Under the pieces are notes generated by a model, which was given only the letters and a program-made list of their open reading frames with translations, was not told the DNA's origin and did no database searches. The position numbers and the translations under genes were made by a program. Positions 35,298-54,943 of a stretch of 64,000 nt of DNA are shown here, piece by piece; position 1 is the stretch's first letter; each line of letters begins with the position of its first letter. The DNA comes from Terriglobia bacterium (GTDB taxonomy: Bacteria; Acidobacteriota; Terriglobia; Terriglobales; SCQP01). The stretch covers positions 1-64,000 of the forward strand of contig JAJPKR010000042.1 in assembly GCA_021323595.1 (NCBI GenBank), read 5' to 3'.

Positions 35298-35543
35298 ATG
35301 AAGATTCGTGTCGCAGGCAGCGACGAATATGTTTCCCTCTCCCGGGCCCGGTGGCTGGTAACCGCTCGCCGGGCCCGTTTTTTTGGAACCGGAGAGCTCC
35401 AGATTTTTGCGCGCGCGGCCCGCCGCGACGAGACGGTGCGGTGGACCGCTTACTCCAATGTCGGGCTTCCGAACCCGGCACGGGCGAAATGTTTGCGGGG
35501 CGTGCTGATGAATGGCGCGGCGATGAGGACCGATGAAGCGTAA
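35298..35543 (+). CDS. Doubtful small phage-block protein
   Basis: 81 residues starting MKIRVAGSDEYVSLSRARWLVTARRARFF. Short phage proteins that turn a cluster of basic residues into a similar 'YVSLKRA..LV..GRA' pattern exist, which supports it. Against it: no Shine-Dalgarno, TTT-TTT codons foreign to this GC-rich style, and a near-perfect intrinsic terminator (35343-35384) inside the frame. It overlaps the next gene by 11 bases. Confidence 0.35.
   Translation: MKIRVAGSDEYVSLSRARWLVTARRARFFGTGELQIFARAARRDETVRWTAYSNVGLPNPARAKCLRGVLMNGAAMRTDEA
35343..35384 (+). terminator. Intrinsic terminator in the leader of the phage-like block
   Basis: CGGGCCCGG (35343-35351) pairs with CCGGGCCCG (35369-35377) and is followed directly by seven T residues (35378-35384). 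It is the best intrinsic-terminator pattern I saw in the window. It lies about 150 bases before the first solid phage gene, so it may end an upstream short RNA or act as an attenuator. Confidence 0.55.
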
Positions 35544-36972
35544 GGCCGGAGCAGAAAGCAAGGCGCCGCTACTGCATTTCAGCGGCGGGCGGCCGGTGAT
35601 TGACAGTTGGCGGGGATGCCGGCCGCAGCCGCATCGGGCCGGCCGCTGCGCGATTTGCGGGAAGAGTTCCGCCCGCAAGAACGGCGAGCCGTGCATGCGC
35701 TGCGCCGAAGCGCTACAGCGGGCGGAAGTCCTCGGCATCTTCGCCGGGCGGCTGGAACGACGCCGCCTGGGCCTGATCCAGGAGGCGCAGCCGCGCCGGG
35801 GCGCCCCACCGCTGCTGGCCCTGGCAGTGATGCTGGCCCTCTCGGCGACGCGCGGTTGGGCGGGCACGCTGCAAGGGCGCTTCGTGCTGCCGACGACGGG
35901 CAGCGGCATCCGCAACGGCACGTTGACGCTGGCACTCAGCCAGGCGGCCGCGGTCCCCGGATCCTTTGCGATCGTGCCGGCAACCGTCGCCTGCTACACC
36001 TCCGTCGACGGCTCGGTGGTGGGGCTGCCCAATCCGGCTTCGCCCCCCACGCTGCACGCCATTCCCGGCACCGGCAGCCTGCCGGCGGGAACCTATTTCG
36101 TCGCATTCACCTATCTCGGCGCCGGCGGGGAAACCCTGGCCAGCCCGGAAGCCACGGTGAATCTCACCGTGACCGGCGAGATCGAGGTCGATCCGCCCGC
36201 CCTGCAACCGAACGGCGCGACCGGGATCAACGTTTATATCGGCGCCGCCTCGGGCGCGGAGCTCAAGCAGGGCACCGACGCTTTCACGGAGTACGTGCAG
36301 GCCGCCGCGCTCACGGCGGGGGCCGCGCCGCCGGCCACCAATAGTTCGTCCTGCACGCTTATTTTCAACGACGCCACCGTGCCGGCGCCGACCTATTATG
36401 TCGCCACGCTCAAGGATGCCAACGGCAATACCATCGCCGGCTTCCCGCAGAGCTGGTACTTGAGCGGGGCCGCCGACGACGTTTCCCAATTGGTCCCCCT
36501 CACCAGCAATCCGGCTGTTCGCTTTCCCGAGCCGTTGCTGAGCAATCCCGCCACCAGCGCGGCGCAAAGCGTGGGCTCGGCCCTCAATCTCAACGGCTTC
36601 GCGATTTCCAATACCAGCAACCTGGGGCCGGGAATCATCAGCGGATTTTGGAGCGGTGCGCTGCCCCCGCCCACGGCGACGCTCGATCAGTGGACGCCGA
36701 ACGCGGCGCTGGTCGTGCGCAGGATCAGTCTCTACGCGCAAACCGCCGGCAACGGCGGCAGCAGCGGAACCTCGCTGACGATCGGCAATAGTCAAGGTTC
36801 TTGCACGTTTTCCGCCTTGCTGCCCGCGGCAACGGCCGCCAGCAGCAACGGCGCTCCGGCGGGCGCCTGCGCCTTCGCCGCGGGACTGCCGCTCACTTTG
36901 TCGATCACGAGCGACGACCACACGACTCGGCCCGCCAACGTCGAGTGGAAGATCGAGGCGACGGCGCAGTGA
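35533..36972 (+). CDS. Zinc-ribbon head joined in frame to an exported tail-fibre-like protein
   Basis: 479 residues. Residues 29-57 carry a four-Cys ribbon (C39, C42, C54, C57). Residues 91-110 are hydrophobic and end like a signal peptide (LSATRGWAG), and from 112 on the protein is beta-rich. A module at about 178-275 ('GTGSLPAGTYFVAFTYLGAGGETLASPEATVNL', 'GINVYIGAASGAELKQG') is clearly related to one in the tailspike at 38438. An internal ATG at 35830 could start a separate exported protein, making this two genes without a stop between. GAGGA lies before the ATG. The next gene overlaps by GTGA. Confidence 0.75.
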   Translation: MKRKAGAESKAPLLHFSGGRPVIDSWRGCRPQPHRAGRCAICGKSSARKNGEPCMRCAEALQRAEVLGIFAGRLERRRLGLIQEAQPRRGAPPLLALAVMLALSATRGWAGTLQGRFVLPTTGSGIRNGTLTLALSQAAAVPGSFAIVPATVACYTSVDGSVVGLPNPASPPTLHAIPGTGSLPAGTYFVAFTYLGAGGETLASPEATVNLTVTGEIEVDPPALQPNGATGINVYIGAASGAELKQGTDAFTEYVQAAALTAGAAPPATNSSSCTLIFNDATVPAPTYYVATLKDANGNTIAGFPQSWYLSGAADDVSQLVPLTSNPAVRFPEPLLSNPATSAAQSVGSALNLNGFAISNTSNLGPGIISGFWSGALPPPTATLDQWTPNAALVVRRISLYAQTAGNGGSSGTSLTIGNSQGSCTFSALLPAATAASSNGAPAGACAFAAGLPLTLSITSDDHTTRPANVEWKIEATAQ

Positions 36973-37187
36973 TCGCGGGGGAGGCGGGGACGCCATGGCT
37001 GGAGATTGTCATTTCCGGCGCGCTCGAATTGGCCATCAACGTGGCGGTCCTGGCGTTCTTTCTCGGACGCCTTTCGGAACGAGTCGAGGTGCTATGGCTC
37101 GCGGTCTTCAATCATTTGGGCCTGGATCCGGAATCGACCCGGAAAGAGTGGCGCCGGAAGCATAGGCCGGAAAAAGGCGACTTATGA
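36969..37187 (+). CDS. Small single-pass membrane protein beside the lysin (holin- or spanin-like by context)
   Basis: 72 residues from GTG 36969. One hydrophobic helix (LEIVISGALELAINVAVLAFFLG) is followed by a charged, basic C-terminal tail ending EKGDL. It overlaps the upstream gene by GTGA and the transglycosylase by ATGA. A lysis role is suggested only by its place next to the lysin. No family is recognised. Confidence 0.7.
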   Translation: MIAGEAGTPWLEIVISGALELAINVAVLAFFLGRLSERVEVLWLAVFNHLGLDPESTRKEWRRKHRPEKGDL

Positions 37188-37768
37188 GTAATACCATGAC
37201 ACCGCCGCCGGCCGGTGCGATTGCCGTGCCGGCTCAGCTGGGCGCTTATCTGCCGGTGTTGTTGGATGCCGCGACGGCCACGCAGCTGCCGTTCTGGCTG
37301 CTGGCGGCGGTGATCGAGCAGGAGAGCGGCTACGACCCGCGCGCCAAGAGCGACGCGGGGGCGATCGGCCTCATGCAGATCATGCCAGAAACGGCGCGGG
37401 ATTGCGGGGTCTCGGTCGCCGAGCTCTGGGTCCCCGAAAAGAACATCCGCTTGGGGGCCCGGATCTTGGCGGATCGCTACGACTGTTTTCGTCACGAGAG
37501 CGGGGACGAGCGGCTCAAGTTCGCGCTGGCGGCCTATAACGGCGGGCTGGCGCCAGTGCTCAACGCGCAGGCGCTCGCCTTTCGGCGCGGCCTCGATCCG
37601 ACGCAATGGGCTTCCCTGGCGGCGGTCTTGCCCGACACGCAAGTCTTCTTGCACGGGCAATGGCTGCGTCCCGATTACGACCAAATCATCGACTACGTCG
37701 CCGCGATTTGGCGGCGGTTCGACGCCTGGCGGGCCCTACCGCTGCCAGGCGCAGAGGCGAGTTCCTAA
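37184..37768 (+). CDS. Lytic transglycosylase (SLT domain), phage endolysin-like
   Basis: 194 residues. The SLT fold is complete: 'FWLLAAVIEQESGYDPRAKS' (catalytic Glu about 47), 'GAIGLMQIMPETA', 'NIRLGARILADRY' and 'ALAAYNGG'. It cleaves peptidoglycan between MurNAc and GlcNAc to form 1,6-anhydro ends. No signal peptide is present, which suits release through a holin or packaging in a virion. It is tightly coupled to the small membrane gene upstream. Confidence 0.93.
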   Translation: MSNTMTPPPAGAIAVPAQLGAYLPVLLDAATATQLPFWLLAAVIEQESGYDPRAKSDAGAIGLMQIMPETARDCGVSVAELWVPEKNIRLGARILADRYDCFRHESGDERLKFALAAYNGGLAPVLNAQALAFRRGLDPTQWASLAAVLPDTQVFLHGQWLRPDYDQIIDYVAAIWRRFDAWRALPLPGAEASS

Positions 37769-37783
37769 GCCGGAGACAAGACC

Positions 37784-38104
37784 ATGCCCAAGACCAGGTT
37801 GGTCAGCCTTAATGCCAATACGGGCGCATGGACGCCCATTGCAGCGAGCATCGCCGCGCATGGCGTCGAGATCAGCGAAGACGGCTCGGTCACGTCGCAA
37901 GGGATCGAAGCACAATTCGCGACCGATAACTTCGCCATCACCGATACCTACCCGCCCGGCGCCGCGCTCCAGATCACCGGCCACGGCAACGATGGCGCGG
38001 CCGGGCTGCCGCCGCAGCCGTACCGCAGCGGCGACGTTTATTGCCAGTTGCGCTCCGCTACCGCCACGGGCACCGTCGTGCGCGTGGTGGAAAGCGAAAC
38101 GTAA
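37784..38104 (+). CDS. Small beta-rich phage structural protein, unknown
   Basis: 106 residues starting MPKTRLVSLNANTGAWTPIA, with alternating polar and hydrophobic strands ending 'GDVYCQLRSATATGTVVRVVESET'. It resembles small phage head- or tail-decoration proteins in style, but no named family is recognised. It follows the lysin by 15 bases in the same direction. Confidence 0.75.
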   Translation: MPKTRLVSLNANTGAWTPIAASIAAHGVEISEDGSVTSQGIEAQFATDNFAITDTYPPGAALQITGHGNDGAAGLPPQPYRSGDVYCQLRSATATGTVVRVVESET

Positions 38105-38150
38105 CCGTTCTTCGTAGGTTCGTTCTCACACTTCGTTCAGGAGGATCGTC

Positions 38151-38435
38151 ATGAATTTCTTGAAATCGATCGTTGGAATTCTGCCTTTCGTCGGCGGCAT
38201 CGTCCAAGCCGTCGAAAGCCTCTTCGGTCATGGCAACGGCGCCAGCAAGAAGCAAGCGGCCATGTCCGGCGTGCAATCCATTCTCGACGCCTTCGGCAGC
38301 GTCACCGGCGCTAACGTCAGCGGCAGCACTTTGGCCGCCGACTTAGGCAAGCTCATCGATGCCACGGTCGCAGTTTACAACGACCTGGGAATCTTCACCC
38401 ACGGCGCTGCCGCTCCCGCGACAAGCACGAAATAA
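38151..38435 (+). CDS. Small phage-block protein with an amphipathic N-terminus, unknown
   Basis: 94 residues: 'MNFLKSIVGILPFVGGIVQAVESLFG', then a Lys-containing turn and a helix 'GVQSILDAFGSVTG', then a hydrophobic stretch ending in a polar tail. Similar short proteins near tail and lysis genes exist in podoviruses. AGGAGG precedes the ATG. It ends 2 bases before the tailspike gene. Confidence 0.75.
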   Translation: MNFLKSIVGILPFVGGIVQAVESLFGHGNGASKKQAAMSGVQSILDAFGSVTGANVSGSTLAADLGKLIDATVAVYNDLGIFTHGAAAPATSTK

Positions 38436-38437
38436 TC

Positions 38438-41047
38438 ATGAATCACGGCCGAATCTTAGCGGCGGTCGTCGCGATCTCGCTGGCGGCGTTAGGCCAAACC
38501 GTAGGGGGCGGCGGGGGCTCGGGCAACGCCACCAGCATTCAGGGCAAGGCGGTGGCGGCGACGGCGCCGGCCACCAACCAGGTGCTCACCTGGAATGGCA
38601 GCGCCTGGGCGCCGGCCTCGGTCTCGACCGGCTCGACGACCTGGAGCTCGATCTTGAACCCCACCGCCTCGCTGGCCGTGGCGATGGCGAACTACGGGAC
38701 CTCGTTCACCTGGGGCTCGGCCACCGGCGCCGGGGCGGACATGCTCAAGCTGACCGATTCCGCCGCGAATACCGGCACCGGCGCAATCCTGCACGTAACC
38801 ACGGCGGCGGGCTCGGCGGCGATCCCGGTCGAGCTCGACGCCAACGGCCTGGGCGTCGAGCTCACCACCGGCGGCGTGCTCAAGCCCCTCGGCGGCGGCC
38901 ACATCTCCGCCGACCAGCTCCAGGGCAACGCCGTCGCCGCGACCACGCCCGCGACGAACCAGGTGCTCACCTGGAACGGCTCGGCGTGGGCGCCGGCGAA
39001 CGCTGCCGGCGGCGCGACCAGCTTCTCCGCCCTGACCGGCGGCACCAATTCGTCCGCGGCGATGCTCGTGGGGTCGGGCGCTTCGCTCGGCCCCACCGGC
39101 ACCGGCACGGTCAACGCGAACCAGCTCCAGGGCGTCGGCGTCGCCGCGACCAGCCCCGCCTCCAACCAGGTGCTCACCTACAACGGCAGCCAGTGGGCGC
39201 CGGCGACGCCCTCGGGCGGCGGCTCCTCGGCGTTCTCGGCGCTGACGAGCGGCACCAACACCAGCGCCGCGATGCTGGTCGGCAGCGGCGCTTCGCTCGG
39301 CCCCACCGGCAGCGGGGCGATCACCAGCTCCGCCAGCCAGGGCTGCGTCAATCCGATGAGCTACGGCGCGGTGGGCAACGACACGACCGACGACACCGCG
39401 GCCTTCCAGGCGGCGATCAGCGCGCTCGACACGCAGGGCGGCGGCTGCCTGTGGGTGCCCCCGAACCACACGTTCCTGATTGACGGCGCGCTCATCCTCC
39501 CCACCCACGGCGGCACGCCGGGCACCTCGATCGGCAACCAGCACGCCGTCGAGCTCCTCGGCGGCGGCTGGTCGCGGCAGTCGAACTTCGCAAACTCCGC
39601 CGCCGTGGACGGCGGCTCCGTGCTCGACCTGCGCTTCTCGCAGATGGCGGCGCCGGCCGCGCCCACGGTCACCCCCACCACCGGCACCGGCTCGCTCGCG
39701 GGCGGCAACTACTACGTCAAGGTCACCTACACCGACCCCGCCGGCGAGACCACCGGCTCGGCCGAGACCGGCCCGATCAACCTGTCGGCCACCGGCGAGC
39801 TCACCGTCACCGCGCCCGCCTTCGCCCCCGACGACGAGACCGGCTACAACGTGTATATCGGCACCACGTCGGGCGGGGAGACCAAGCAGAACGCCTCGCC
39901 GGTCGGCGTCGGCACGAACTACGTGCAGAGCGCCGCGCTCGGCGCCGGCAGCGCCGTGCCCGGCGCCAACACCACCAAGCCGCCGAAGATCATCGCGCTC
40001 GGCTACGGCGAGCTCACCATCGAGAACCTCGCCCTGGCCGACCTGGGAACCGACTGCGCGCCGTTCGTGATGGTCACCTCGACGCGCCTGTACGCCTACA
40101 ACGACCTGGTGCGCGGCACCACCGCCTCGAACCCCGGCGGCTCGATCTTCTCCTGCAACGACGGCTTCATCCTGGGCGGCACGAGCACCAGCGCGCTAGG
40201 GACGGCGCAGGACGCCTTCCAGGGCTACGGCGCGGTGATCCGCGATAACTACTTCGACAACATCCGCCAGGGCGTGCTGGCGCAGACCTACGCGAACTCG
40301 ATCGCCATCGTCAGCAACACCTGGACGCCCGAGTCGGGCTCGAGCTCGGCCTCCGCGGGCGCGATCTCCCTCGTCGGCCTCAGCTCCGCCTCGCCCGATT
40401 CCGGCAACTACATCGCCGGCAACCTGATCGAGGCCTTCGCCTACCCCACCTCGATTTACCTGGAGAACGCCTCCAACAACGACCTGATCTCGAACGCGTT
40501 CTGGGATAACGGCGCGACCACCAAGCAGTTCGTTTGGTGCGATTCGACCGACGGCCACATGAACGTGATCGACGGCTCCGCGAATCTCTCCGGCGGCGTC
40601 ACGTTCTACCAGAGCGGCTCGGGCTGCGGGCTCACCACCAGCCGCCAGGCGCAGTCGGACGTCTCGACGCTGCCCAACGGGCTGACCGTCGGCAACACCA
40701 CCTTCACCGGCTCGGCGATCTTCAACGGCTTCCCGGTCAGCTTCGCCTCCGGCTGGAATCTGCGCACGCTCGTCGAGACCGGCAGCTACACGCTCAGCGT
40801 CATCGACCAGATCATCATCGCGAACCCCACGGCGGCGGCGACCATGACGCTGCCGGCGGCCACCGCGGGCAACGGCGTCGGGGCGACCCATTGCGTCGTG
40901 AACATCTCGACGCAGACGGTCACCTTCGCGCCCGCGAGCGGCGACACCGTCAACGGCTCGAGCAGCGGCATCAGCCTCGCCACGCAGTACAGCCACGCCT
41001 GCGTCGTCAGCGACGGCTCGCATGAGTGGTACACGGTGAGCCAGTAA
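38438..41047 (+). CDS. Tailspike/tail-fibre protein with a pectate-lyase-like beta-helix
   Basis: 869 residues with a signal-like start (ILAAVVAISLAALGQT). Residues about 37-245 hold three copies of 'VAAT.PATNQVLTWNGSAWAPA' and two copies of 'GTN.SAAMLVGSGASLGPTG'. From about 300 the pectate-lyase superfamily entry motif 'MSYGAVGNDTTDDTAAFQAAISAL' starts the beta-helix. A module at about 410-510 is shared with the gene at 35533. The C-terminal part is a short beta cap. The function is host-surface recognition or glycan cleavage. Codon use is strongly GC3-biased compared with neighbours, leaving long open antisense frames, which suggests separate acquisition. Confidence 0.9.
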   Translation: MNHGRILAAVVAISLAALGQTVGGGGGSGNATSIQGKAVAATAPATNQVLTWNGSAWAPASVSTGSTTWSSILNPTASLAVAMANYGTSFTWGSATGAGADMLKLTDSAANTGTGAILHVTTAAGSAAIPVELDANGLGVELTTGGVLKPLGGGHISADQLQGNAVAATTPATNQVLTWNGSAWAPANAAGGATSFSALTGGTNSSAAMLVGSGASLGPTGTGTVNANQLQGVGVAATSPASNQVLTYNGSQWAPATPSGGGSSAFSALTSGTNTSAAMLVGSGASLGPTGSGAITSSASQGCVNPMSYGAVGNDTTDDTAAFQAAISALDTQGGGCLWVPPNHTFLIDGALILPTHGGTPGTSIGNQHAVELLGGGWSRQSNFANSAAVDGGSVLDLRFSQMAAPAAPTVTPTTGTGSLAGGNYYVKVTYTDPAGETTGSAETGPINLSATGELTVTAPAFAPDDETGYNVYIGTTSGGETKQNASPVGVGTNYVQSAALGAGSAVPGANTTKPPKIIALGYGELTIENLALADLGTDCAPFVMVTSTRLYAYNDLVRGTTASNPGGSIFSCNDGFILGGTSTSALGTAQDAFQGYGAVIRDNYFDNIRQGVLAQTYANSIAIVSNTWTPESGSSSASAGAISLVGLSSASPDSGNYIAGNLIEAFAYPTSIYLENASNNDLISNAFWDNGATTKQFVWCDSTDGHMNVIDGSANLSGGVTFYQSGSGCGLTTSRQAQSDVSTLPNGLTVGNTTFTGSAIFNGFPVSFASGWNLRTLVETGSYTLSVIDQIIIANPTAAATMTLPAATAGNGVGATHCVVNISTQTVTFAPASGDTVNGSSSGISLATQYSHACVVSDGSHEWYTVSQ

Positions 41048-41056: not shown

Positions 41057-41464
41057 ATGAAACTCTTGCATCCCTTTCAAAGCGGGAACGAGGCGCGGAT
41101 GCGCTTGATCGCGCGGGAAGCCGAACTGGCCGCGCGCCTGGCCAACGCCGAGACGGATTTGGCGATGGCTCGCGCCGAAGTTGCCGAACTGCGGCAAAAA
41201 ATGGAACGCCTGCTCGACAACACTCTGTTTGCCTCCGGCCTTGGCCCGATCTTCGCGCCCGAGGATGCGCGATTTCGGCCCCGGCCCATGGATGAGCAGG
41301 TGGGTTTGACGCGGCTGCGGCAGCCGGTATCGGCGCCCCAGTGGCGTCAGCGAGCCGAGCGGGAAGCGCTCGAACTCGCTCGCGAAGAGGAGCGAAAACA
41401 ATGGCAACAAGATCTCGAACGGATCACACGGCAAGCCGAGCAGACGCGCGCGCCGCTGGCGTAG
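41057..41464 (+). CDS. Coiled-coil phage-block protein, unknown
   Basis: 135 residues. Residues 12-55 form a heptad-rich helix ('EARMRLIAREAELAARLANAETDLAMARAEVAELRQKMERLL'), with a second charged helix at about 95-130 ('REALELAREEERKQWQQDLERI'). The middle is Pro/Arg-rich. It could be a tail-assembly or scaffolding accessory; no family is recognised. It overlaps the next gene by 64 bases in another frame. Confidence 0.75.
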   Translation: MKLLHPFQSGNEARMRLIAREAELAARLANAETDLAMARAEVAELRQKMERLLDNTLFASGLGPIFAPEDARFRPRPMDEQVGLTRLRQPVSAPQWRQRAEREALELAREEERKQWQQDLERITRQAEQTRAPLA

Positions 41465-41951: not shown

Positions 41952-44276
41952 ATGACGGCAATGGAAGCGGAAGCAAACCAACCCGCGGCGGACGAGGCCG
42001 CTGTCGCGGATTCGCTGGCGGCCGGCGGCCAACCGGACGCCTCCGAACAGGCCAATAGCGAGGCGCCCCATCTTGGGCAAGATCCGCCGCCCGAAGTCCA
42101 GGAGGCGCTGCGCGCGCTCGTGCGCGGCTATGAGCTCGAATCCGACGCCGTCCGCCGCCACAAGGTCCGCATTTGGCGACAAGCCGAGGAGTTCTGGAAG
42201 GGCAACCAAAACATTTGGTGGAACGCCGGCGCCAGCCAATGGCAAACGCCCTTCGAAAGGCCGCTCGGCGATCCCGAGGACGCTCCACGCTGCGACTACG
42301 CGATCAATCTCTATCGCGCTTGGGGGCTCTCCATCATCGCCGCGCTCACGATGAGCAAGCCGACGATTCAGTTCCGCCCCTCCAGCGCCGCCAACGAGGC
42401 CGACATCGCCACCGCCGGCGCCGCCGCCAAGATCCAGGCGCTCGTCGCCCACAACAATTCCCTCGATACCCTGCGCACCAAGAAGGCCTATTACTTGTGG
42501 ACGCAAGGCATTTACGCCGCCTACATCCGTTACGTGGTGGATGGCGGCCTGTTCGGCTACGCCGAAGTCCCGCAATTCGAGGAGCGCGCGATCGAAGTCG
42601 CGCCCGCGCGCTGGGAATGCGCGGATTGCGGCCGCTGCTGCCCCGCCGCGGCGGGCGCGGCACCGCCCTCCCGCTGCGACTGCGGCGCGCCCCTCGGCGC
42701 CGAGTCCTTTCGCCCCGCCGAGCAGATGATCGCGCCCGCGGCCAGCGGCGCGCGCCGCGTCCCGCAAGGCGCGGAAAAGATCGATGTTTACGGCCCGCTG
42801 TTCTTCAAAGTCCCGCCGCAGGCCGAGGATCAGCGGCACTGCTACTACTTGATCCTGGTAGAGGAGCAGCACAAGGCCACGCTGCGCGCGGCGTATCCCG
42901 CCAAGGCGGACCTGATCGATGACGTCGGAAGCGGCGCCGAAGACACCTACGAGCGCATCACCCGCCTCAGCTTGGCCGATGCCCAGGGCAGTTGGAACTC
43001 GCTGCCCATGTCGAGTCTGGTCACCTACAAGCGCGCCTGGCTGCGGCCGGAGGCGTTCTGGGCGCACGCCGATCCCGCCATGCGCCGGCAACTGCTCGCC
43101 CTCTATCCGGAAGGATGCATCGTCGAATTCGCCGGCGACGTCTTCTTGACCGCCCGCGCCGAGCGCATGGACGACTACTGGGTCATCTGCACCGGCCTGC
43201 CTGGGATCGGCCTCTACCGCGACGGCCTCGGCTATGACGCCTTGAGCATTCAGCGCCAAATCAACGACACCGCCAACATCTTGGCCGAACACCGGGAAAT
43301 GAGCAGTTCGCCCCCGGTCCTGTACGATGCCCGCTATATCAATGGCGAGTCGCTCACCAAAAAGCGCATGCAGCCGGCCAGCTACACGCCGGTGGTGATC
43401 GAAAACGCCGGATTGCAGAAGCAACTCTCCGAGCTCGTTTTCCAGCCGCGCGTGGGCGTGGATCCGGCGTTGTGGCAAGACGGGGAGCGCCTGGCGGAAG
43501 TCGGCCAGGCCATCTGCGGCGCCCTGCCGAGCATCTTCGGCGGCGGCTCGCCCAACCTCAAGACCGCTTCCGCCTATGCGCAGGCGCGGGATCAGGCCAT
43601 GGGCCGGCTCACCCTCACGCTGCGGCAAATGTGGGAGGCGGAGGCGCGCGAGATGTCGCTGGCGGTCGAGTGCTTCAAGCGCAATCGCGACACCGACACG
43701 GAATTGGTCATCACCGGCGTCAGCGGCGGCTATCGCAGCGAGTACATCCGTCTCGGCGAATTGCGCGGCAGCGCCGTCGCCTATGCCGCCGCCGCGGAAG
43801 ACTTCCCGCAGACCTGGGCGCAGGTGCGCGACTCGCTGCAACAACTGCTGCAATCGAAAGACCCGGTGCTGCTCGATATTTTGGGGGCGCCGGTGAATCG
43901 GCCCATTCTCAAGCGCTATCTCGGTCTGCCCGAGCTGATCGATCCCGCCGAAGACAACCGCTCCAAGCAGTATCGCGAGACCGAAGCGCTGCTCGACTCG
44001 GAGCCGGTGGTCGGCGCCGGCGGCAAGCTGCGGCCGAGCGTCCCTCCCGATCCGCTGGTGGACGATCACTCGATTCACATCGACGCGATCAAGGAATGGG
44101 CCGTCTCCGACCTGGGCATCGCCGCCAAGGCGGCGCGGCCGCTCGGGTACGCGAACGTGATCGCCCACCTGTTGGCGCACATGGACGCCGAAGAACAAGC
44201 CGCGGCCGATCAAGCGCGCCGGTCCAGCGCGGTTGCGGCCGCGGCCCAGAAAGGAAACGTGCAGGAAAATGTCTGA
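41952..44276 (+). CDS. Portal protein
   Basis: 774 residues, a normal length for podovirus-type portals. The N-terminal 60 residues are acidic and low-complexity. Then 'IWRQAEEFWKGNQNIWWN' and 'AINLYRAWGLSIIAALTMSKPTIQF' mark the start of the portal fold, and 'SIQRQINDTANILAEHREM', 'PRVGVDPALWQDGERLAEVGQAI' and 'SAYAQARDQAMGRLTLTLRQMWEAEA' the long-helix stem region. A zinc-ribbon-like insertion sits at about 219-242 ('WECADCGRCCP' and 'SRCDCGAP'). It should form the 12-fold DNA entry channel. Scaffold and capsid genes follow, supporting the call. Confidence 0.86.
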   Translation: MTAMEAEANQPAADEAAVADSLAAGGQPDASEQANSEAPHLGQDPPPEVQEALRALVRGYELESDAVRRHKVRIWRQAEEFWKGNQNIWWNAGASQWQTPFERPLGDPEDAPRCDYAINLYRAWGLSIIAALTMSKPTIQFRPSSAANEADIATAGAAAKIQALVAHNNSLDTLRTKKAYYLWTQGIYAAYIRYVVDGGLFGYAEVPQFEERAIEVAPARWECADCGRCCPAAAGAAPPSRCDCGAPLGAESFRPAEQMIAPAASGARRVPQGAEKIDVYGPLFFKVPPQAEDQRHCYYLILVEEQHKATLRAAYPAKADLIDDVGSGAEDTYERITRLSLADAQGSWNSLPMSSLVTYKRAWLRPEAFWAHADPAMRRQLLALYPEGCIVEFAGDVFLTARAERMDDYWVICTGLPGIGLYRDGLGYDALSIQRQINDTANILAEHREMSSSPPVLYDARYINGESLTKKRMQPASYTPVVIENAGLQKQLSELVFQPRVGVDPALWQDGERLAEVGQAICGALPSIFGGGSPNLKTASAYAQARDQAMGRLTLTLRQMWEAEAREMSLAVECFKRNRDTDTELVITGVSGGYRSEYIRLGELRGSAVAYAAAAEDFPQTWAQVRDSLQQLLQSKDPVLLDILGAPVNRPILKRYLGLPELIDPAEDNRSKQYRETEALLDSEPVVGAGGKLRPSVPPDPLVDDHSIHIDAIKEWAVSDLGIAAKAARPLGYANVIAHLLAHMDAEEQAAADQARRSSAVAAAAQKGNVQENV

Positions 44277-46987: not shown

Positions 46988-47677
46988 ATGCGCGACGACA
47001 TTTCTTTTCGCCACGCCCCGCGGCATTTGGCGGCGCTGCTCCGCCGCCGCTACGGATGCACGGACTGGGGCGAGCCACTGTACCGGCTGGTCTGGGCGCC
47101 GGCGCGGCTGGAGCGCTCCGGCGGCCTCTGGAACGACTGGCGCGGCGGCACGCAAGCGCGCGGCCAAGGCGTCCTGCGCCGGGTCGTGGAGCTGCGCTGG
47201 GTGCCGAAGTATCCCGGCGAAGTCTGCTGGCTCCTCGAACAATGGACGCCGCCGCTCGCCTATGGCACGCCCGCCGGCTGGTGGCGGCCCGTGGCGGAAG
47301 GCGGCACGATTTTGCCGACCGCTTGGGGCCCGGTCCCCACGCTCGGACCGTATCCCGAACGCGGCGACTACGAAGATTTGGGGGCGCGGCTGTATTGGTA
47401 TCCGAGCGAACGCCAGTTGACGCTGGCGATCGACGTGACGAGGCGCCGCCGCGATCGAGTTGCGGCGTCAGCCCGGCAGCGGTTGCGGGGCGCGGTGGCC
47501 AGCGCACGCCAGCGCGAGGCGCAGCGCGATGCCGATTTCGAGAGCTTTTGCCGTGATGTTCTGGACGATGCGGCGCCGGCGTTTGCCGGCGCGCCCATGG
47601 CGGGCTATGGGCCGAGGCGCCGTCCCAGCCTGGTGAGCGCGGCCGAATCCATCGGCATCCGCTCGCATCCGTATTGA
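46988..47677 (+). CDS. Phage-block protein downstream of capsid, unknown
   Basis: 229 residues. The first 130 are rich in Trp, Arg and Pro ('WGEPLYRLVWAP', 'LLEQWTPPLAYGTPAGWWRP'), and a basic helical tail has 'RQRLRGAVASARQREAQRDADFESFCRDVL'. The position between capsid and connector-type genes suggests head completion, but no family is recognised. Confidence 0.75.
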   Translation: MRDDISFRHAPRHLAALLRRRYGCTDWGEPLYRLVWAPARLERSGGLWNDWRGGTQARGQGVLRRVVELRWVPKYPGEVCWLLEQWTPPLAYGTPAGWWRPVAEGGTILPTAWGPVPTLGPYPERGDYEDLGARLYWYPSERQLTLAIDVTRRRRDRVAASARQRLRGAVASARQREAQRDADFESFCRDVLDDAAPAFAGAPMAGYGPRRRPSLVSAAESIGIRSHPY

Positions 47678-47846: not shown

Positions 47847-48581
47847 ATGTCCACGCAAATCCGCGAGTCCGCCAATCCCGGCGCCCTCTATCCCACGGTC
47901 TTCGAATCTCCGGCCGGCCTTGCCAGCGGCGGCGCGCCCTCCAAGGGCGGCATCGCCGACCGGCTGCGCGATCGCTTGGTGCGCGAAGAGTGGACGCGCC
48001 TGCACAAGCGCGGCTGGGATCACGTCGAAATCGAGAATTACCATCCCTGGCCGGTGCGCGTTGACTTGGGCGAACTCGGCATCGTCGCCATACCCGCCGC
48101 TCATGGCGAGGAGCCGGGCCGCGTTCGCCTCGATACGCCGCGTATCTCCATGCGCGACCTGGGCGATGGCAACTTCGTGCCCGTCAGCGTGCTCCCCAGC
48201 GAGATGGCGCAAGAGGTCGAGCGGGAATACCAAAAGGCCGGCGGTATCGTCTGCCATTCCGCCGGCGCCGCGCCCGATCCGGCGGCGGTGGCGGCGGCGC
48301 TCGCGCGGCAGCGGGCTTGGTACCGGGAGGAATACCGCAAGGCCGTCCAGTCTTGGTCGCGCTACCGCCAGCACCAGTTCATCACCGACCGCCAGCGCGA
48401 CGCCGCCAGGGCGCTGGCCGAGGCCGGCGAGATCGCGGCCTTGCCCGAGTGGGTCAGCCTGACGCGCGACTCCAGCGAGCGCCGCTTGTGTCCGGAATGT
48501 GGCGAGGAGGTCAAGCCCTTGGCGCGCATCTGTCGCTTCTGCCGGTCCAGCCTTCCCCAGGACGCCGCCGATACGCCCTAG
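47847..48581 (+). CDS. Phage-block protein with a C-terminal zinc ribbon
   Basis: 244 residues. The middle has 'LVREEWTRLHKRGWDHVEIENYHPWPVRVDLGELG' and a charged helical stretch. The end is a two-CxxC ribbon, 'LCPECGEEVKPLARICRFCRSSL', like the rubredoxin-style knuckle in MscL at 17.2 kb. The ribbon suggests nucleic-acid or protein contact. TTTGGAGG precedes the ATG. No family is recognised for the body. Confidence 0.77.
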   Translation: MSTQIRESANPGALYPTVFESPAGLASGGAPSKGGIADRLRDRLVREEWTRLHKRGWDHVEIENYHPWPVRVDLGELGIVAIPAAHGEEPGRVRLDTPRISMRDLGDGNFVPVSVLPSEMAQEVEREYQKAGGIVCHSAGAAPDPAAVAAALARQRAWYREEYRKAVQSWSRYRQHQFITDRQRDAARALAEAGEIAALPEWVSLTRDSSERRLCPECGEEVKPLARICRFCRSSLPQDAADTP

Positions 48582-48658: not shown

Positions 48659-49345
48659 ATGGATACCGCCGCTGACGCGCTCGCCATCGCCCGCGCTTTG
48701 CTCGACCCGACCGGGCAAGGGCTCTTTCCCGACGCCGCCCTCATGCCCTATCTGAATGCCGCCTATCGCGCCATCGGCGACGAAGTGGTCACGATTCGCG
48801 AGTGGACGGCCAACGAAGCCGTCGCCGCCCTGCCCGCGCTGCCCGCTTACACCGCGACGCTGGCCGCGTTTCAAGCGCCGGGCCAGCCGCTCGCCGCCAT
48901 GGAGCAGCCGATTGCGATCCGCGAGAAGCCCGCGGGCGCGCCGCCCGAGGACTACCAAGAAGTCCGCTTAGTGGATGAGTTGCCGGCGCGCTCGCCCGCC
49001 GCTTTCTTGCTCGAATACGAATGGCGCGGCGCCAGCGCCGTCTTCATCGGCGCCTCGCAAGTTCTCGATCTCGAGGTGCGTTTCGTCGCCCGCTGGGGCG
49101 CGCTGAGCGCCCCCGCCGATCCCTTGGCCGTCAATGGCCTGGCCAACACCCTTGGCTGGTGGACCGCCGGCCTGATGTGCTCGGCGCTGCGCGAAGACGT
49201 CAAGAGCCAGCAATATCTCGCCGGCGCCCGTCACTTCCTCTTCCAGCGCATCAATGACTATGTCAAAACTTCGCAGATGACCCTGCGGCGCCCGCGCCCC
49301 TATCGCAGCGGCTGGCTCTGGAACGGCGCGGAGAAGTGGTTATAG
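48659..49345 (+). CDS. Connector-like (head-tail joining) phage protein
   Basis: 228 residues from ATG 48659. It starts with an N-terminal helix pair ('ALAIARALLDPTGQGLFPDAALMPYLNAAYRAIGDEV') that resembles adaptor proteins sitting under the portal, followed by beta strands and a helix 'NTLGWWTAGLMCSALREDV'. The place between capsid and tail genes supports a connector role, inferred from order and fold impression. The start coincides with the end of heptamer tract 2, leaving no normal ribosome site. Confidence 0.74.
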   Translation: MDTAADALAIARALLDPTGQGLFPDAALMPYLNAAYRAIGDEVVTIREWTANEAVAALPALPAYTATLAAFQAPGQPLAAMEQPIAIREKPAGAPPEDYQEVRLVDELPARSPAAFLLEYEWRGASAVFIGASQVLDLEVRFVARWGALSAPADPLAVNGLANTLGWWTAGLMCSALREDVKSQQYLAGARHFLFQRINDYVKTSQMTLRRPRPYRSGWLWNGAEKWL

Positions 49346-49355
49346 AGGTCAGGAA

Positions 49356-49976
49356 ATGACTCAACCGATCCCCAACCGTCAAGGCGTGGCCGGCGCCGCC
49401 TTGCCGCGCGCCGATTCCTCGCTGGCCAACCGTCAGCTGCTCTTGATCGAGCATGGGCAAACCCGCTTCGACCGCCGCCATCGCGTCCACGGATTCCTGG
49501 ACCCGCCGCTCAATCCCGAGGGCCGGCGGCAAGCCGCGCGCTTGGGCCTCCGGCTCGCCGGCCTGGCTCATCCGCCCTCTCGCATCTTCACGAGCGATCG
49601 GCGGCGCGCCGCCGAGACCGCGCGCATAGCCGGCGCAATCGCCGGCATCCCGGTGACGGCGACGCCGGCGCTGCGGCCGCTCAATGTCGGCCGCTTCTCG
49701 GGACAAGACCAACGCGCCGTGGCGCGCCGCCTCCAACCCTATTTTGCGGAGCCCGAGCGCCGCATTCCCGGCGGCGAAAGCGTCGGCACGTGGCGCCGCC
49801 GCCATCTCGCCTTCGTTCGCGGCCTCGCCGCCGCGGCGCGCGGCGCGGCCGAGCGCCCCGCGCTCCTGACTCATTCCAACGTGATCGAATCCCTGGGCGG
49901 CGGCGCGCATCCGCGCAGCGCCCAAATGCTTCGCGTCAGCTTCCCGAGTCCTGGTTTTCAGAATTCAAGCTCGTGA
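49356..49976 (+). CDS. Histidine-phosphatase (phosphoglycerate mutase-like) family protein in the phage block
   Basis: 206 residues. The catalytic motif 'LLIEHGQT' holds His33, but the preceding Arg of the normal RHG triad is Glu32. Later motifs are intact: 'FTSDRRRAAETA', 'GGES' and 'LLTHSNVI' with the second His. 'FLDPPLNPEGRRQA' is normal for the family. It may hydrolyse phosphomonoesters with altered substrate choice, or be a binding protein. A metabolic-type enzyme between head and tail genes is unusual. It lies 10 bases after the connector-like gene, so it is part of the operon. Confidence 0.86.
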   Translation: MTQPIPNRQGVAGAALPRADSSLANRQLLLIEHGQTRFDRRHRVHGFLDPPLNPEGRRQAARLGLRLAGLAHPPSRIFTSDRRRAAETARIAGAIAGIPVTATPALRPLNVGRFSGQDQRAVARRLQPYFAEPERRIPGGESVGTWRRRHLAFVRGLAAAARGAAERPALLTHSNVIESLGGGAHPRSAQMLRVSFPSPGFQNSSS

Positions 49977-50085: not shown

Positions 50086-50469
50086 ATGCCTTGGACCTTC
50101 AATCTCAGTTCCCTGACTGAAGGCGAGAGAGACCTCGCCGTCTTCGGCCAACTCAGCTTCTCCGGCAGCTACGCCACCGGCGGCGATTCCGGCTCGTTCG
50201 TGATTGGCGGAAACACCATCGGCTGGCCCGATTGGCGTCCCGGCGCCAGCGCCCTGCACGCCGCGTTGCCGCCGATCGCGGCTCAGGTCGCGCTCGATGG
50301 CGGCTATACCGCGACGGTCGCACCGGCCGCTTCGGGCAGCGCGAGCTTCAAGATCAAGATCGTCGATCCCGCGACCCACTCCGAACTCGCCGCCGCCGCT
50401 TATCCGGCCGCGCTCACCGGCGCCGGCGCCTTGCACACCTTGGCGCTGCGTTACCGCAAGAACCTTTAA
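50086..50469 (+). CDS. Small phage structural protein, unknown
   Basis: 127 residues from ATG 50086 with GGAG upstream. A Gly/Ser/Ala-rich beta pattern ('FGQLSFSGSYATGGDSGSFVIGGNTIGWPDW', 'GSASFKIKIVD') fits a small decoration or tail protein. No family is recognised. Confidence 0.76.
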   Translation: MPWTFNLSSLTEGERDLAVFGQLSFSGSYATGGDSGSFVIGGNTIGWPDWRPGASALHAALPPIAAQVALDGGYTATVAPAASGSASFKIKIVDPATHSELAAAAYPAALTGAGALHTLALRYRKNL

Positions 50470-50507
50470 ACCTGGCGGCGTGGCCGGTCGTCGGACGCCG
50501 GCGCCGC

Positions 50508-50558: not shown

Positions 50559-50596
50559 GTCCGTAACTGCTTTCCAGGGCTTTAGCGTCGCCGCGA

Positions 50597-50624
50597 ACCG
50601 TTAACTGTCCAACGGTCACCATCC
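50597..50624 (+). repeat. Heptamer-periodic tract 4
   Basis: Units ACCGTTA, ACTGTCC, AACGGTC, ACCATCC in constant phase, ending 4 bases before the ATG at 50629. Confidence 0.68.
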
Positions 50625-50628
50625 CTTC

Positions 50629-52605
50629 ATGATCCAAGGCTACGTCTCGGTCCCCATCGAACGCTTCGGCGGCCTCGTGACCAGTTGGCCGGAAGCGATG
50701 CTGGACGTTTCGCTCGCCTCGCGCGCAGAAAACGTTCGCTTCACCCAGAGCGAAGTCGGCAGCCGCGAAGGCCTCACGCGCATCGCCGCGCTAGGCGCGC
50801 CGGTGCAAGGCCTGGGCGAATTCGTGCCCGCCGGCGGCAGTACCACCCCGGTCGCCTTCGATGCCAACGGCAAGCTCTGGCTGGAGCAGCCCGCCGGCTC
50901 CGGCGTCTTTGTCGCCGCCGTCAACGGCCTGGTGACGCCGCCCGCGGGCGCGCGCATGCGGGCCGCGGCCGCCTACGGCCGCCTCTACGCCGCCTTCGGC
51001 GACGGCCGCCAGGGCGTCGGCGCCCCGGCTGCGTTCGACGGCACGAACCTTGATCCCGTCACCACCGCAGCCCCCGCTACGCCGCCGCAGCCGCAGGACT
51101 CCATCAACGCCGGCAACGTCGCCGCCGGACAGCGCTACGTCGTCGTCCTGTTCAAGACCCGCGCCGGCTCGCTCACCGCGCCCAGCCCGCCCTCCAGTTG
51201 GACCGCCGCCGGCGGCAAGCAAGCCCTGATCGGCAACTTGCCCATCGGCCCCAGCAATGTCGTCGCCCGCATCGTGGCCTTCACCGTAGCCGGCGGGTCC
51301 AGCGATGGTCCGTACTTCTATATCGGCGAATCGCAGAGCGTTAACGGCGTTTCCGAAACCGCCACCGTGATCGACGACAATTCCACCACCTCCGCCACCT
51401 TCAACTTCGACGACGCCTTCCTGAGTTCCTCGATCGATGTCACCGATCAGTTCCGCGCTATCCCGCTGCCCGAGGAATCCGGCGTCTTCTACTCGGCGCT
51501 GACGCAGCGCATGGTGTGGTGGGGCGAGCCCGGTCAGCCGAGCCTGGTTCGCTTCAGCCAGCCGCAGGACGCCGGCACGTATTACGGCGACACCGGATTC
51601 CTGCTCGTCTCCGATGGCGATGGCCAGGCGGTGACCGCGGTCTTCGAGCTGCGCGATCAGCTCTTCGTCGCGAAGCAAGATTCCCTCTACGTGGTCACGC
51701 CCAATGACGGCGACCCGGCCGCCTGGGACGTGCTGCCGGTCACCAACAAAATCGGCATCGCCGGCGCCGATGCTTTGGATCTCGGCAACGGCTTCGCCGT
51801 CTTCGCGCATCCCAGCGGTGCTTACTACTTCGACGGCAGCCAGCCGCAATGGATCTCCGACGAACTCGCCGGCGCGTCCGCCGATCACCCCGGCTTCTGG
51901 CAGCGCATCAACTGGGCCGCCGCCGGCCCCTGGGTCGCGATCGACGTTAACGCCAAGGAGGCGCGCTTCGGCGTCGCCCTCGACCAAGCCGGCGCGCCCA
52001 GCCACATTCTCAAGCTCAATTACATGGATGGCTGGGACCGCTCGTTCCGCTTCTCCGCCTTCACCGGCCGCTATCACTACTTCCCCGGCCGCCGCTGGTC
52101 GCTCGACACCATCGCCGCCCAGGTTGCGCGCCTCCTCGATCGTCCGGGGGCGAGCTTGCCGCTTACCGCCGACCGCACCCTCGCCGCCCGCCAGCTCGTG
52201 CTCGGCTCCGGCGCCGCCGAGGGTGATCTTGTCTTCGTGGATCCCAACGCGACCAGCGATATGGCCGCCCCGATCGCCAGCGTGCTCGAACTGGGTGCGG
52301 TCTCGAGCGCCGAGCAGACACGCATGCAGCGGCAAGGCGTGGAATTGCTGGGCCTGATTCAGATTCGCGCGCGCGGCGCCGGTTCCCTGCAAGTCGAAGC
52401 CGGCGCCGGCGGCGCCGGTTGGCGCCCGCTCGCCGCCGTGCCGCTCCAAGACGAAGCTTCGCGCGACGCTCAAGCCTTCGGCGGCGTCGCCGGCGAGGCC
52501 GTGCGCCTGCGCTTGCGCTCGGCGGGCGGCGCCTGGCGCTTGCTCGCCGCCTATGCTTTCATGCGGCCTCTTTGGCCGCTGCGTCCCCTCGCGCCCGGCG
52601 CCTGA
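50629..52605 (+). CDS. Large tail-hub/stabilisation-type phage protein
   Basis: 658 residues. The beginning 'SVPIERFGGLVTSWPEAMLDVSLASRAENVRFTQSEVGSREGLTRI' is characteristic of phage proteins that read like a propeller (repeated 'GLGEFVP..', 'VAFDANGKLWLEQ'). The central part has 'FRAIPLPEESGVFYSALTQRMVWWGEPGQPSLVRFSQPQDAGTYYG' and 'ELRDQLFVAKQDSLYVVT', recalling tail-stabilisation or tail-hub proteins of podoviruses. The C-terminal part is Ala/Arg-rich. No signal peptide is present. The functional name is an inference from fold style and order. Confidence 0.77.
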   Translation: MIQGYVSVPIERFGGLVTSWPEAMLDVSLASRAENVRFTQSEVGSREGLTRIAALGAPVQGLGEFVPAGGSTTPVAFDANGKLWLEQPAGSGVFVAAVNGLVTPPAGARMRAAAAYGRLYAAFGDGRQGVGAPAAFDGTNLDPVTTAAPATPPQPQDSINAGNVAAGQRYVVVLFKTRAGSLTAPSPPSSWTAAGGKQALIGNLPIGPSNVVARIVAFTVAGGSSDGPYFYIGESQSVNGVSETATVIDDNSTTSATFNFDDAFLSSSIDVTDQFRAIPLPEESGVFYSALTQRMVWWGEPGQPSLVRFSQPQDAGTYYGDTGFLLVSDGDGQAVTAVFELRDQLFVAKQDSLYVVTPNDGDPAAWDVLPVTNKIGIAGADALDLGNGFAVFAHPSGAYYFDGSQPQWISDELAGASADHPGFWQRINWAAAGPWVAIDVNAKEARFGVALDQAGAPSHILKLNYMDGWDRSFRFSAFTGRYHYFPGRRWSLDTIAAQVARLLDRPGASLPLTADRTLAARQLVLGSGAAEGDLVFVDPNATSDMAAPIASVLELGAVSSAEQTRMQRQGVELLGLIQIRARGAGSLQVEAGAGGAGWRPLAAVPLQDEASRDAQAFGGVAGEAVRLRLRSAGGAWRLLAAYAFMRPLWPLRPLAPGA

Positions 52606-52617
52606 GGCCTAATCCCG

Positions 52618-53088
52618 ATGCCCGTTTCTCGCGGCTGGATCAACCAGCTCCTTCAGCCCAACCCCGTCGCCTGGCGCGCCACGACCGACTTGGCGAACCA
52701 CGCCGATGCCATGGAGAAATCCCTGGGCTTGGCTATCGTCAGCGGCCAGCAAACCAATGGCGCCGTTCTGCCGCCGCCGCCCGCGCCGGATAGCTGGACC
52801 ATCCTCGCCGCCAACGGGCATTTTGTCGCGACCATCGCGCCGCCCAGCGGCGTTTGGGTGCAATACGAATTGCAAAGTGCCACGGATCGGAATTTCGATG
52901 CCAATTCCAACGTCTCAACTTACACTTTGGGCCTCGGCGCCGCGTCGCTCGACGTCGTGGATCCCGGTGTCACCAAATTCTGGAGGGCGCGTTGGCGCAG
53001 CTTAGGCTCTTCCTGGAGCGGTTGGCGCGACTATGCCACCGCTTCCGGCGTCAGCGCGCTGTCGAGCGGCGCGCTCAAGACGAGCTAG
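52618..53088 (+). CDS. Phage tail protein with an FN3-like half
   Basis: 156 residues. The N-terminal 55 residues are helical ('VAWRATTDLANHADAMEKSLGLAI'); the second half (about 60-150) resembles an FN3 domain ('SWTILAANGHFVATIAPPSGVWVQYELQSATDRNF' and 'VTKFWRARWRSLGSSWSGWRDY'). It probably extends the tail or fibre. It lies 12 bases after the tail-hub gene. Confidence 0.76.
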   Translation: MPVSRGWINQLLQPNPVAWRATTDLANHADAMEKSLGLAIVSGQQTNGAVLPPPPAPDSWTILAANGHFVATIAPPSGVWVQYELQSATDRNFDANSNVSTYTLGLGAASLDVVDPGVTKFWRARWRSLGSSWSGWRDYATASGVSALSSGALKTS

Positions 53089-53156
53089 CGCCGCCTTCGA
53101 CGCCCGCCCCGCGCATCGGCGCGCCGCGCCGCCCGCAGCCCGCCGAGATCACCGCC

Positions 53157-53498
53157 TTGCGGGCCACGCACCGTCGGCAATGCGCCGCCTTGGGCTGCAG
53201 CTACGACTTTCCCGACTTCGCGGGCGACCCGTCCTATCGCGTGCTCATGCTCGGCGATGGCGCGGCCCTGGTGGTCAAGGCGACCCATGAAGCCTTCGTG
53301 ATCGCCGCTTCGCCGCCGCCGTTTCTCGCGCTGCTGGCCGCGCGCGACGCCGTCGCCGCGCGCCTCAAGCAGGCGGGCGTGGATGAGCTGCATGCATGGA
53401 CGCCGCCGGGGCTGGAGGGCCGCATGCGCCGTCTGATGCGCGCGCTGGGATTTCGCGATTGCAGCCCCGGCTGGCACGCCTGGTACCGCGAACTTTGA
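53157..53498 (+). CDS. GNAT-like phage protein (start uncertain)
   Basis: About 113 residues if TTG 53157 is used; no ATG or GTG is well placed after the previous stop at 53088, so the true start may be non-canonical and further upstream. The core 'YRVLMLGDGAALVVKATHEAFVIA' and 'AARLKQAGVDELHAWTPPGLEGRMRRLMRALGFRD' resembles the short acetyltransferase-like proteins that sit among head and tail genes of many podoviruses. It ends just before a 6-base hairpin (CAAGCC/GGCTTG, 53500-53520). Confidence 0.62.
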   Translation: MRATHRRQCAALGCSYDFPDFAGDPSYRVLMLGDGAALVVKATHEAFVIAASPPPFLALLAARDAVAARLKQAGVDELHAWTPPGLEGRMRRLMRALGFRDCSPGWHAWYREL

Positions 53499-53567
53499 CC
53501 AAGCCCGCGTCATCGGCTTGCCCTCGGCGCCCTGCCGCCGGCGCAAACGATGACCCGAGAGCCGGAA

Positions 53568-53598
53568 ACCGTCAACGGTCAACCTACAACCGTTAACC
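53568..53598 (+). repeat. Heptamer-periodic tract 5
   Basis: Units ACCGTCA, ACGGTCA, ACCTACA, ACCGTTA, ACC. It runs straight into the AAGGAG ribosome site of the gene at 53611. Confidence 0.75.
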
Positions 53599-53610
53599 AA
53601 GGAGCTCGAA

Positions 53611-54186
53611 ATGGCACGAGGAGATAAAAACATCTATCAACAGCAACAGCAAGCCGCTTACAAGCAGGCGCAAAGCCTGGCGCAGCAGGCGGCCCAAAAC
53701 CAGCAAAACTTGCTCGGTGCGGTCGCGCCCATGTATGAGCAGGAATATCAGCAGCCCGGCTACTCGCCGCAGGAACAGCAAGCGATGCGCCAGGCCGCCG
53801 GCGGTGCATTGGCCGGCGCCATGGGCGCCGCCCGCAGCCGCTTGCTCGCTCAAGCCGCGCGAACCGGCAACGCCGCCGGCGTGATTCCCGCCGAAGAGCA
53901 GTTGGCGCGCGAGCAAGGCGAAATGAACAGCCAGGCCCTGGGCAACCTCGAGCAAGCCTTCGGCAATGCCCGCATCGCCGGCCAGCAGGCCGCCATGCGC
54001 GGCTTGAGCGGCCTCTATTCCGCCTCCAGCCAGCCACTCGGCATCGGCATGGGCGCCGAATCCAGCCTCATCGGCGACCAAGCCCGCCTGGCCGCGCAGC
54101 CCTCGTTCTGGAGTCAAGTCGCCGGCCGCGCGCTGGGCGGTCTCACCGGCCTGCTGAACTTCGGCCGTGGCGGAGGCGCCCGATGA
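53611..54186 (+). CDS. Gln/Ala-rich helical phage protein (ejection- or tail-type)
   Basis: 191 residues. The first 60 are Gln-rich ('IYQQQQQAAYKQAQSLAQQAAQNQQNLL'). The middle has Ala/Gly-rich helices ('GGALAGAMGAARSRLLAQAARTGNAAGVIPAEEQLAREQGEMN'). The end is Gly/Leu-rich and possibly membrane-active ('ALGGLTGLLNFGRGGG'). Such proteins are typical internal-virion or ejection components, by composition. AAGGAG precedes the ATG. It overlaps the next gene by ATGA. Confidence 0.78.
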   Translation: MARGDKNIYQQQQQAAYKQAQSLAQQAAQNQQNLLGAVAPMYEQEYQQPGYSPQEQQAMRQAAGGALAGAMGAARSRLLAQAARTGNAAGVIPAEEQLAREQGEMNSQALGNLEQAFGNARIAGQQAAMRGLSGLYSASSQPLGIGMGAESSLIGDQARLAAQPSFWSQVAGRALGGLTGLLNFGRGGGAR

Positions 54187-54524
54187 GCCTCCTCGACGCC
54201 ATCGCCTTGCGGTCCTTGATCCCGCGCCTTGCCGGCCTTGGCGACGACCGGTTTCCCCGGCTCCGCGCATCGTCGGGCGGATGTCCACCCCTCGAGCAAG
54301 CGCTCTTGCTGCGCCTCGCGGCCGCATTCCGCACGCCGAGCGACTGGCCGCAGCCGCCGGAACTCGCCGGCGTCGATGCCTCGGTCCAGGTTCCCAACGC
54401 CTTGCAGCCGATGTCCGGCGAATTCGCCGCCGGCCGCGAAGTCGCTGACGGCCAGCCTAGCTTCTTCGGATTCCGTTTGGCCGGCCTCCCGCCGCGAGCT
54501 CAGTCGCGCGGCAGGTATTTCTGA
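54183..54524 (+). CDS. Phage-block protein, unknown, last gene with clear coupling
   Basis: 113 residues starting MSLLDAIALRSLIPRL, with 'LEQALLLRLAAAFRTPSDWPQPPELAGVD' and a C-terminal 'FFGFRLAGLPPRAQSRGRYF'. No family is recognised. Its last codons and stop lie inside a 15-base direct repeat, so the C-terminus may have been altered by a duplication or rearrangement. Confidence 0.7.
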   Translation: MSLLDAIALRSLIPRLAGLGDDRFPRLRASSGGCPPLEQALLLRLAAAFRTPSDWPQPPELAGVDASVQVPNALQPMSGEFAAGREVADGQPSFFGFRLAGLPPRAQSRGRYF

Positions 54525-54537
54525 GCTCAGTCGCGCG
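54496..54537 (+). repeat. 15-base direct repeat at the right edge of the phage-like block
   Basis: GAGCTCAGTCGCGCG occurs at 54496-54510 and again at 54523-54537. The TGA of the preceding gene overlaps the second copy. It may mark a duplication or junction. Confidence 0.8.
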
Positions 54538-54557
54538 TGCCGGCCCCTATTCTGTGC

Positions 54558-54576
54558 GGTCTGATCGACTCAGACC
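54558..54576 (+). terminator. Hairpin closing the phage-like block
   Basis: GGTCTGA (54558-54564) and TCAGACC (54570-54576), a perfect 7-base stem with a 5-base loop, in an AT-richer stretch (54540-54720) like the one at the left edge. No T-run follows. Confidence 0.45.
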
Positions 54577-54718
54577 AGAACACCCAGTCAGTACTCCAAA
54601 GAGGCTCTACCGTTCCGCCCCGCAATAGACATACCTACTTCGGCCAACTTTTCCACTCTCGCCGGCATCTCAGTCTTTAGGGGCCCCACTAAAGGCCCGT
54701 CGCAGACCCGGAAGGCCT

Positions 54719-54943
54719 ATGACTCCATCCGCGCTTCGTCTTTCGCTCCACGGCCTGGCCGCCGCCGCCCTCGGCGGCGCCGCCACCGCCCTCGGGCAAA
54801 TTTTGCTCGCTCCCGGCGATTTCCACTGGGACGCCGCCAGCCTTCATCGTTATGCCGCCGCGGCGGCGGGCGGAGCGGTGATCGCCGTGCTCGCCTATTT
54901 CCGCCAGAGCCCGCTCCCGCCCGCCGCGGCCGAAAAACCCTGA
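54719..54943 (+). CDS. Two-helix membrane protein (holin-like by size)
   Basis: 74 residues with two hydrophobic helices ('LHGLAAAALGGAATALGQILLA' and 'YAAAAAGGAVIAVLAYF') and a short Pro-rich polar tail. Size and topology suit a class II holin. It is 194 bases from the last coupled phage gene and far from the lysin at 37.2 kb, so it may belong to either the phage block or the chromosome. Confidence 0.66.
   Translation: MTPSALRLSLHGLAAAALGGAATALGQILLAPGDFHWDAASLHRYAAAAAGGAVIAVLAYFRQSPLPPAAAEKP

Follow-up and report, generated by a model that had tools for sequence, protein, structure and literature searches.

A candidate gene-transfer-agent-like element shared across a family of Acidobacteriota

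Why should a bacterial chromosome carry an orderly run of podovirus-like morphogenesis and lysis genes in which no terminase, integrase or replication gene is apparent? The question is raised by a Terriglobia draft genome (G000, family f1; 3.55 Mb, 65 contigs, 97.6% complete), in the first 64,000 bases of its 203-kb contig C62, a stretch (bases 1-64000) that we call the window. A preliminary description had rejected simple decay and left three options: a domesticated particle, a gene-transfer-agent (GTA)-like system, or a prophage split from its early genes. From the comparisons assembled here, the block is probably a resident, domesticated GTA-like DNA-packaging particle, and not a decaying or freshly integrated prophage. 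The domesticated or GTA-like option of the earlier interpretation and its rejection of decay are upheld, whereas the terminase-less particle and the split prophage are not. The f1 genomes are draft assemblies, and those with public titles are all metagenome bins; we call a genome good when its completeness reaches 90% and its contamination does not exceed 5%. Genes were called with a simple in-house codon-based caller.

The caller places 22 genes in the block, all on the plus strand, between 35695 and 54943, in agreement with the roughly 22 plus-strand genes over 20 kb first described. Frames are intact, as had been stated, but the genes cannot be called mostly translationally coupled, since only four of the 21 junctions overlap and several gaps span 100-258 bp. 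The lysin, tailspike, portal, capsid and tail assignments are backed by Pfam and PHROG family matches and by a structure model of the portal. Scanned against Pfam and PHROGs, the block proteins include no terminase, integrase, repressor or polymerase, which bears out the preliminary description for the proteins scanned; several small proteins are placed by homology alone.

The first gene (35695..36972) is conserved in f1, with homologues at the same block end in G001-G006 and G013, and part of its product (95 aa of a 479-aa frame) resembles the PHROG family 'head closure Hc3' (phrog_8040, 4.2e-9), a putative assignment. It is followed by a small conserved protein (36969..37187; homologues in G001, G002, G004 and G006), a lysin of the SLT transglycosylase type (37184..37768; PF01464, 6.8e-24; PHROG endolysin, 5e-25) and a further small conserved protein (37784..38104) with homologues in f1 blocks. 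The slot at 38438-41047 is the most variable between genera, the others having another large gene at or near that place. In the window it holds a tail spike or fibre gene (38438..41047; PHROG tail fiber/tail spike, 2e-7 to 9e-6), which, like the small protein adjoining it (38151..38435), has a homologue in G002 only. Two small proteins (41099..41464, with homologues in G013 and the phage contig G329; 41723..41935, conserved in G001, G004, G005 and G006) lead up to the portal gene (41961..44276). The portal was assigned from an AlphaFold (AF2) model with a mean pLDDT of 73, whose best PDB matches in Foldseek are the portals of Pa223, SU10, N4, P22 and T7 (best E 6.9e-15). Family members also match phrog_332 and phrog_156, and a portal fold with short-tailed phages as its best PDB matches is supported by the model.

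Between portal and capsid lies a putative scaffold-like protein (44269..45600), so assigned from its position and composition and 25-44% identical to its f1 homologues. The major capsid protein (45638..46885) was recognised through its family, 13 of whose 17 members match PHROG 14242 'major head protein' (best 1.3e-8); the window's own copy, searched alone, gave no PHROG match. The structure model of the capsid (pLDDT 49) was too poor for use, and profiles of the capsid and of the terminase found no matches among PDB sequences. The head and tail region continues with conserved structural proteins at 46988..47677 (homologues in f1, f7 and f2 blocks) and 47847..48581 (with a zinc-ribbon-like C-terminal end), and a conserved connector or tail protein at 48659..49345 (homologues in f1, f7, f12 and f2). 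Within this structural block sits a gene for a histidine phosphatase-fold protein (49356..49976; PF00300, 5.5e-29), which recurs in the blocks of G005 and G009 and on G329. After a small conserved protein (50086..50469; f1, f7 and f12) comes a large virion structural or tail protein (50629..52605; phrog_3287, 1.4e-8), present as a single copy in all six good f1 genomes tested. Three tail-region proteins (52618..53088 and 53190..53498, both with homologues in f1, f7 and f2; 53611..54186, in f1 and f7) and a short protein of which only part resembles its relatives by alignment (54183..54524) precede the slot in which relatives carry a terminase gene. Here that slot is 194 bp without a gene (54525..54718), and the block closes with a small membrane protein, holin-like by sequence (54719..54943), whose homologue lies 3' of the terminase in G001, G004 and G006.

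The preliminary description had suggested looking for a terminase elsewhere in the genome, and one was found, so that the idea of a particle without a terminase does not hold. A whole-genome profile search returned a single Terminase_6N match in G000, on the 3,560-bp contig C35, where an intact gene on the minus strand (L023:1973-3451) encodes a 492-aa terminase large subunit (family matches at 1e-49). By alignment, the protein keeps its Walker A motif (GGAAGSLKSET), its Walker B motif and the acidic nuclease positions. In seven relatives (G001, G002, G003, G005, G006, G007 and G013) the homologue is found at the block's 3' end or adjacent to it, before the holin-like gene or the host flank, as the last or second-to-last gene; a G004 contig begins with the terminase, followed by the holin-like gene. 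Since seven relatives carry the gene at the block end, it would have been displaced in the lineage of the window if the assembly is right, and displacement is the simplest reading of the 3.6-kb contig. C35 very likely belongs to G000, because the repeat at its end (GGGGACAGCCTGATCT) occurs in 15 copies across that genome, often near contig ends. Genes for HipA- and HipB-like proteins adjoin the terminase on this contig (L023:1-3560).

The displacement could instead be an artefact of assembly or binning, the gene really lying in the block as it does in relatives. The small size of C35 and its dispersed terminal repeat speak for an artefact. Yet the window runs unbroken through the slot, with the holin-like gene still in place along with c30 and c31 of the host, an arrangement also seen in G002, and the neighbours of the terminase on C35 (HipA and a HipB-like regulator) are different ones. 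We regard an artefact as unlikely, though a serious contender, and it would be compatible with a resident particle.

The case for residence comes from the family as a whole. The terminase large subunit is found in 12 of 14 f1 genomes, including all seven good ones and all six genera, usually as one strong match each; the two genomes without it are 82-86% complete, and the gene is intact in every good f1 genome except one in which contig ends cut it. Capsid copies in six f1 relatives are 78-83% identical to that of the window, RpoB between the same genera being 83-90% identical, G003 aside. The threonine operon is a neighbour of the block in four genera: G001, G003, G005 and G006 share the same convergent junction between the block end and the homoserine dehydrogenase gene, threonine-operon genes adjoin the terminase on contig fragments from G012 and G013, and in G002 the operon flanks the opposite block end. 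Genera g1 and g5 have the block at other places; FtsW/MurD/MraY genes adjoin its terminase end in G004, and the same genes are found some 16 kb away from the block in G000. Wherever the contig extends past the block, its flanks are ordinary host genes, and its G+C content tracks that of its own host (0.611/0.609 in G003, 0.635/0.635 in G005).

Between two species of one genus (G001 and G006), synonymous divergence (dS) is 0.47-1.1 for most block genes and 0.63-1.4 for flanking host genes, while dN/dS is 0.07-0.31 for most block genes (0.45 for one gene of 74 codons); capsid and terminase rank with the best-conserved genes of the block. Decay is rejected because frames are intact and dN/dS is low. 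Family-wide presence, a common chromosomal site, host-like synonymous divergence and purifying selection together sustain both the earlier statement that this is not simple decay and the option of a domesticated or GTA-like system. Of five genomes checked, four (G000, G001, G003 and G005) showed no integrase near the block; the fifth, G002, has one some 6 kb past the end of the block. Phage_integrase (PF00589) has no match anywhere on the 203-kb contig C62, and integrase and replication or recombination genes, the hallmarks of a temperate prophage, were not seen among the scanned block and flank proteins. Integration at the tRNA-Val gene (34132-34208) through an attachment repeat was considered and rejected, the search for such a repeat having returned only chance-sized matches.

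We propose that the structural part of a podovirus-type prophage was captured and domesticated before the f1 genera split. The block would encode a capsid with its portal, a short tail and lysis proteins, and the terminase large subunit, in G000 supplied from another locus, would load DNA into the capsid. Since capsid, portal and terminase are all conserved, selection appears to keep a DNA-filled particle; and since no integrase or replication gene was found, the likely cargo is chromosomal DNA, which the particle would package and lysis release, as in a GTA. That particles form, carry host DNA and bring it to other cells is what we infer from the genes. Among the features listed for GTAs (PMC9662315), structural proteins derived from Caudoviricetes are seen in the portal fold, the capsid PHROG and the terminase, and full endogenisation, often at several loci, in the host flanks and, subject to assembly, in the terminase on C35. 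With two of the six features present and one mixed, the block is filed as a candidate GTA-like element in Acidobacteriota and not as a confirmed member.

Relatives of the block extend beyond f1. The capsid is found in 43 of 89 genomes of f7, a second family of the same class (29 of its 50 good genomes); f9 and f12 contribute a single genome apiece, and two f2 genomes encode more distant versions. In f7 blocks the terminase mostly precedes the portal instead of lying at the other end. The block of one f7 genome, G045, is interrupted by a minus-strand gene (L072:7901-10225) for a 774-aa protein with a PHROG kinase-family match, which might be a regulator. Related capsids occur on at least 85 IMG/VR contigs; among the 80 matches listed, identity is 40-65% in every case but one. 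The exception is G329 (IMG/VR contig 3300036651_001467), a related temperate phage contig whose capsid and portal are 78% and 56% identical to those of the window. The terminase frame of G329 (L137:11940-15215) is 1091 aa long, and the foreign sequence begins inside Walker A (GGAAGSLK-ALDVETPIPTP), in what looks like an intein. Isolate phages gave no nucleotide match to the block and no capsid or portal protein matches.

Such relatives give substance to an alternative in which G329-like temperate phages infected f1 repeatedly, early genes were lost or overlooked, and the blocks are remnants in varied states of decay. G329 has genes for an integrase, RusA, an AAA ATPase, a PDDEXK-like protein and a methylase together with the structural module and the close capsid; the patchy presence in f7 also counts against strict residence. 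The trees point the same way in part. RpoB places G000 with G002 and G007 (support 97/93; G000 RpoB partial, 888 aa), whereas the portal and the large virion protein group it with g6 and G329, the alternative being strongly rejected (portal p-AU 1e-112). The portal and tail genes of f1 do not form one clade and the G329 copies fall inside the resident clade, which implies gene exchange between phages and residents. G117, of f12, joins f1 in the portal and capsid trees and f7 in RpoB. Mostly vertical inheritance, with co-diversification of block and host, is the mixed feature among those listed for GTAs: for it speak the dS values, the common site and a distance correlation with RpoB of 0.81-0.89 over f1, f7 and G117, against it the conflict of the portal and the large virion protein with RpoB and the discordance of G117. 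A separate oddity concerns G003, filed in f1, whose RpoB (L097) is 86-87% identical to f2 and only 78-82% to f1, through either transfer or a binning error.

Against recurrent infection stand the host-like dS and purifying selection between G001 and G006, the junction common to three genera and the terminases left intact in good genomes. Moreover, a search for the recombination ATPase of G329 in 15 bacterial genomes from f1, f7 and f2 came back empty, and four of the five blocks checked are integrase-free. As the only early gene sought, this ATPase also leaves the suggested prophage split from its early genes unsupported, the absence of early genes elsewhere in G000 being judged from this one marker and the positions of integrases. 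The g6 blocks keep the threonine-operon junction seen in g2 and g4, so that the conflict probably arose as parts of a resident block were replaced and not through fresh insertion. We consider a lineage of prophages an unlikely source of the pattern, if one that deserves weight.

It is rather improbable that the domesticated particle serves another purpose than gene transfer, for example as a satellite capsid or a phage-interference particle. The same comparative evidence would apply, as any DNA-filled particle needs a conserved capsid, portal and terminase, and the variable spike slot would suit the targeting of other cells. The tailocin form of this idea is rejected as unlikely, since capsid, portal and terminase are all present and conserved, the first and the last especially so. 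Returning to a resident GTA-like particle, we put forward a fuller version more tentatively: an independent podovirus-type GTA of Acidobacteriota, family-wide, perhaps of common origin with the blocks of the second family, with its motor gene relocated in one genus and its tail parts refreshed from phages.

Several known systems invite comparison. Among the nearest isolate terminases are those of HMO-2011-like podoviruses (about 31-34% identity), whose terminase-portal-coat order broadly resembles that of f7 blocks; profile comparison of the HMO-2011 portal and coat with the portal and capsid of the block detected no similarity. Provirus groups from tundra soil (Terriglobia/Bryobacterales; PMC11924767), likened here by description, are typical of acidobacterial families and were reported as proviruses; they might include the f7 blocks. 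G329 has the same module as the block, but also the integrase, RusA and other early genes that the residents lack. The Bartonella GTA (BaGTA), too, has its capsid, portal and terminase genes in a conserved cluster, which is under purifying selection and shows substitution rates like those of flanking core genes (PMC3610622), much as in G001 and G006. The likeness is one of description: BaGTA belongs to another phylum and has a phage-derived run-off replication region and experimental support, whereas no replication region was found here. A genetic basis is established for few GTA groups (three, in PMC9662315), and we found no description of a GTA in Acidobacteriota in the literature searched. 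Acidobacteriota abound in soils, and most of them have yet to be cultured. With a candidate of defined gene content across a whole family, the GTA question becomes testable in the phylum. RcGTA and other GTA viriforms (PMC9662315) likewise have endogenised structural genes, sometimes at several loci and largely vertically inherited; the block differs in being known from its genes alone and in swapping genes with a phage lineage that retains its early genes, an exchange that illustrates how free phages and a captured particle can go on trading parts.
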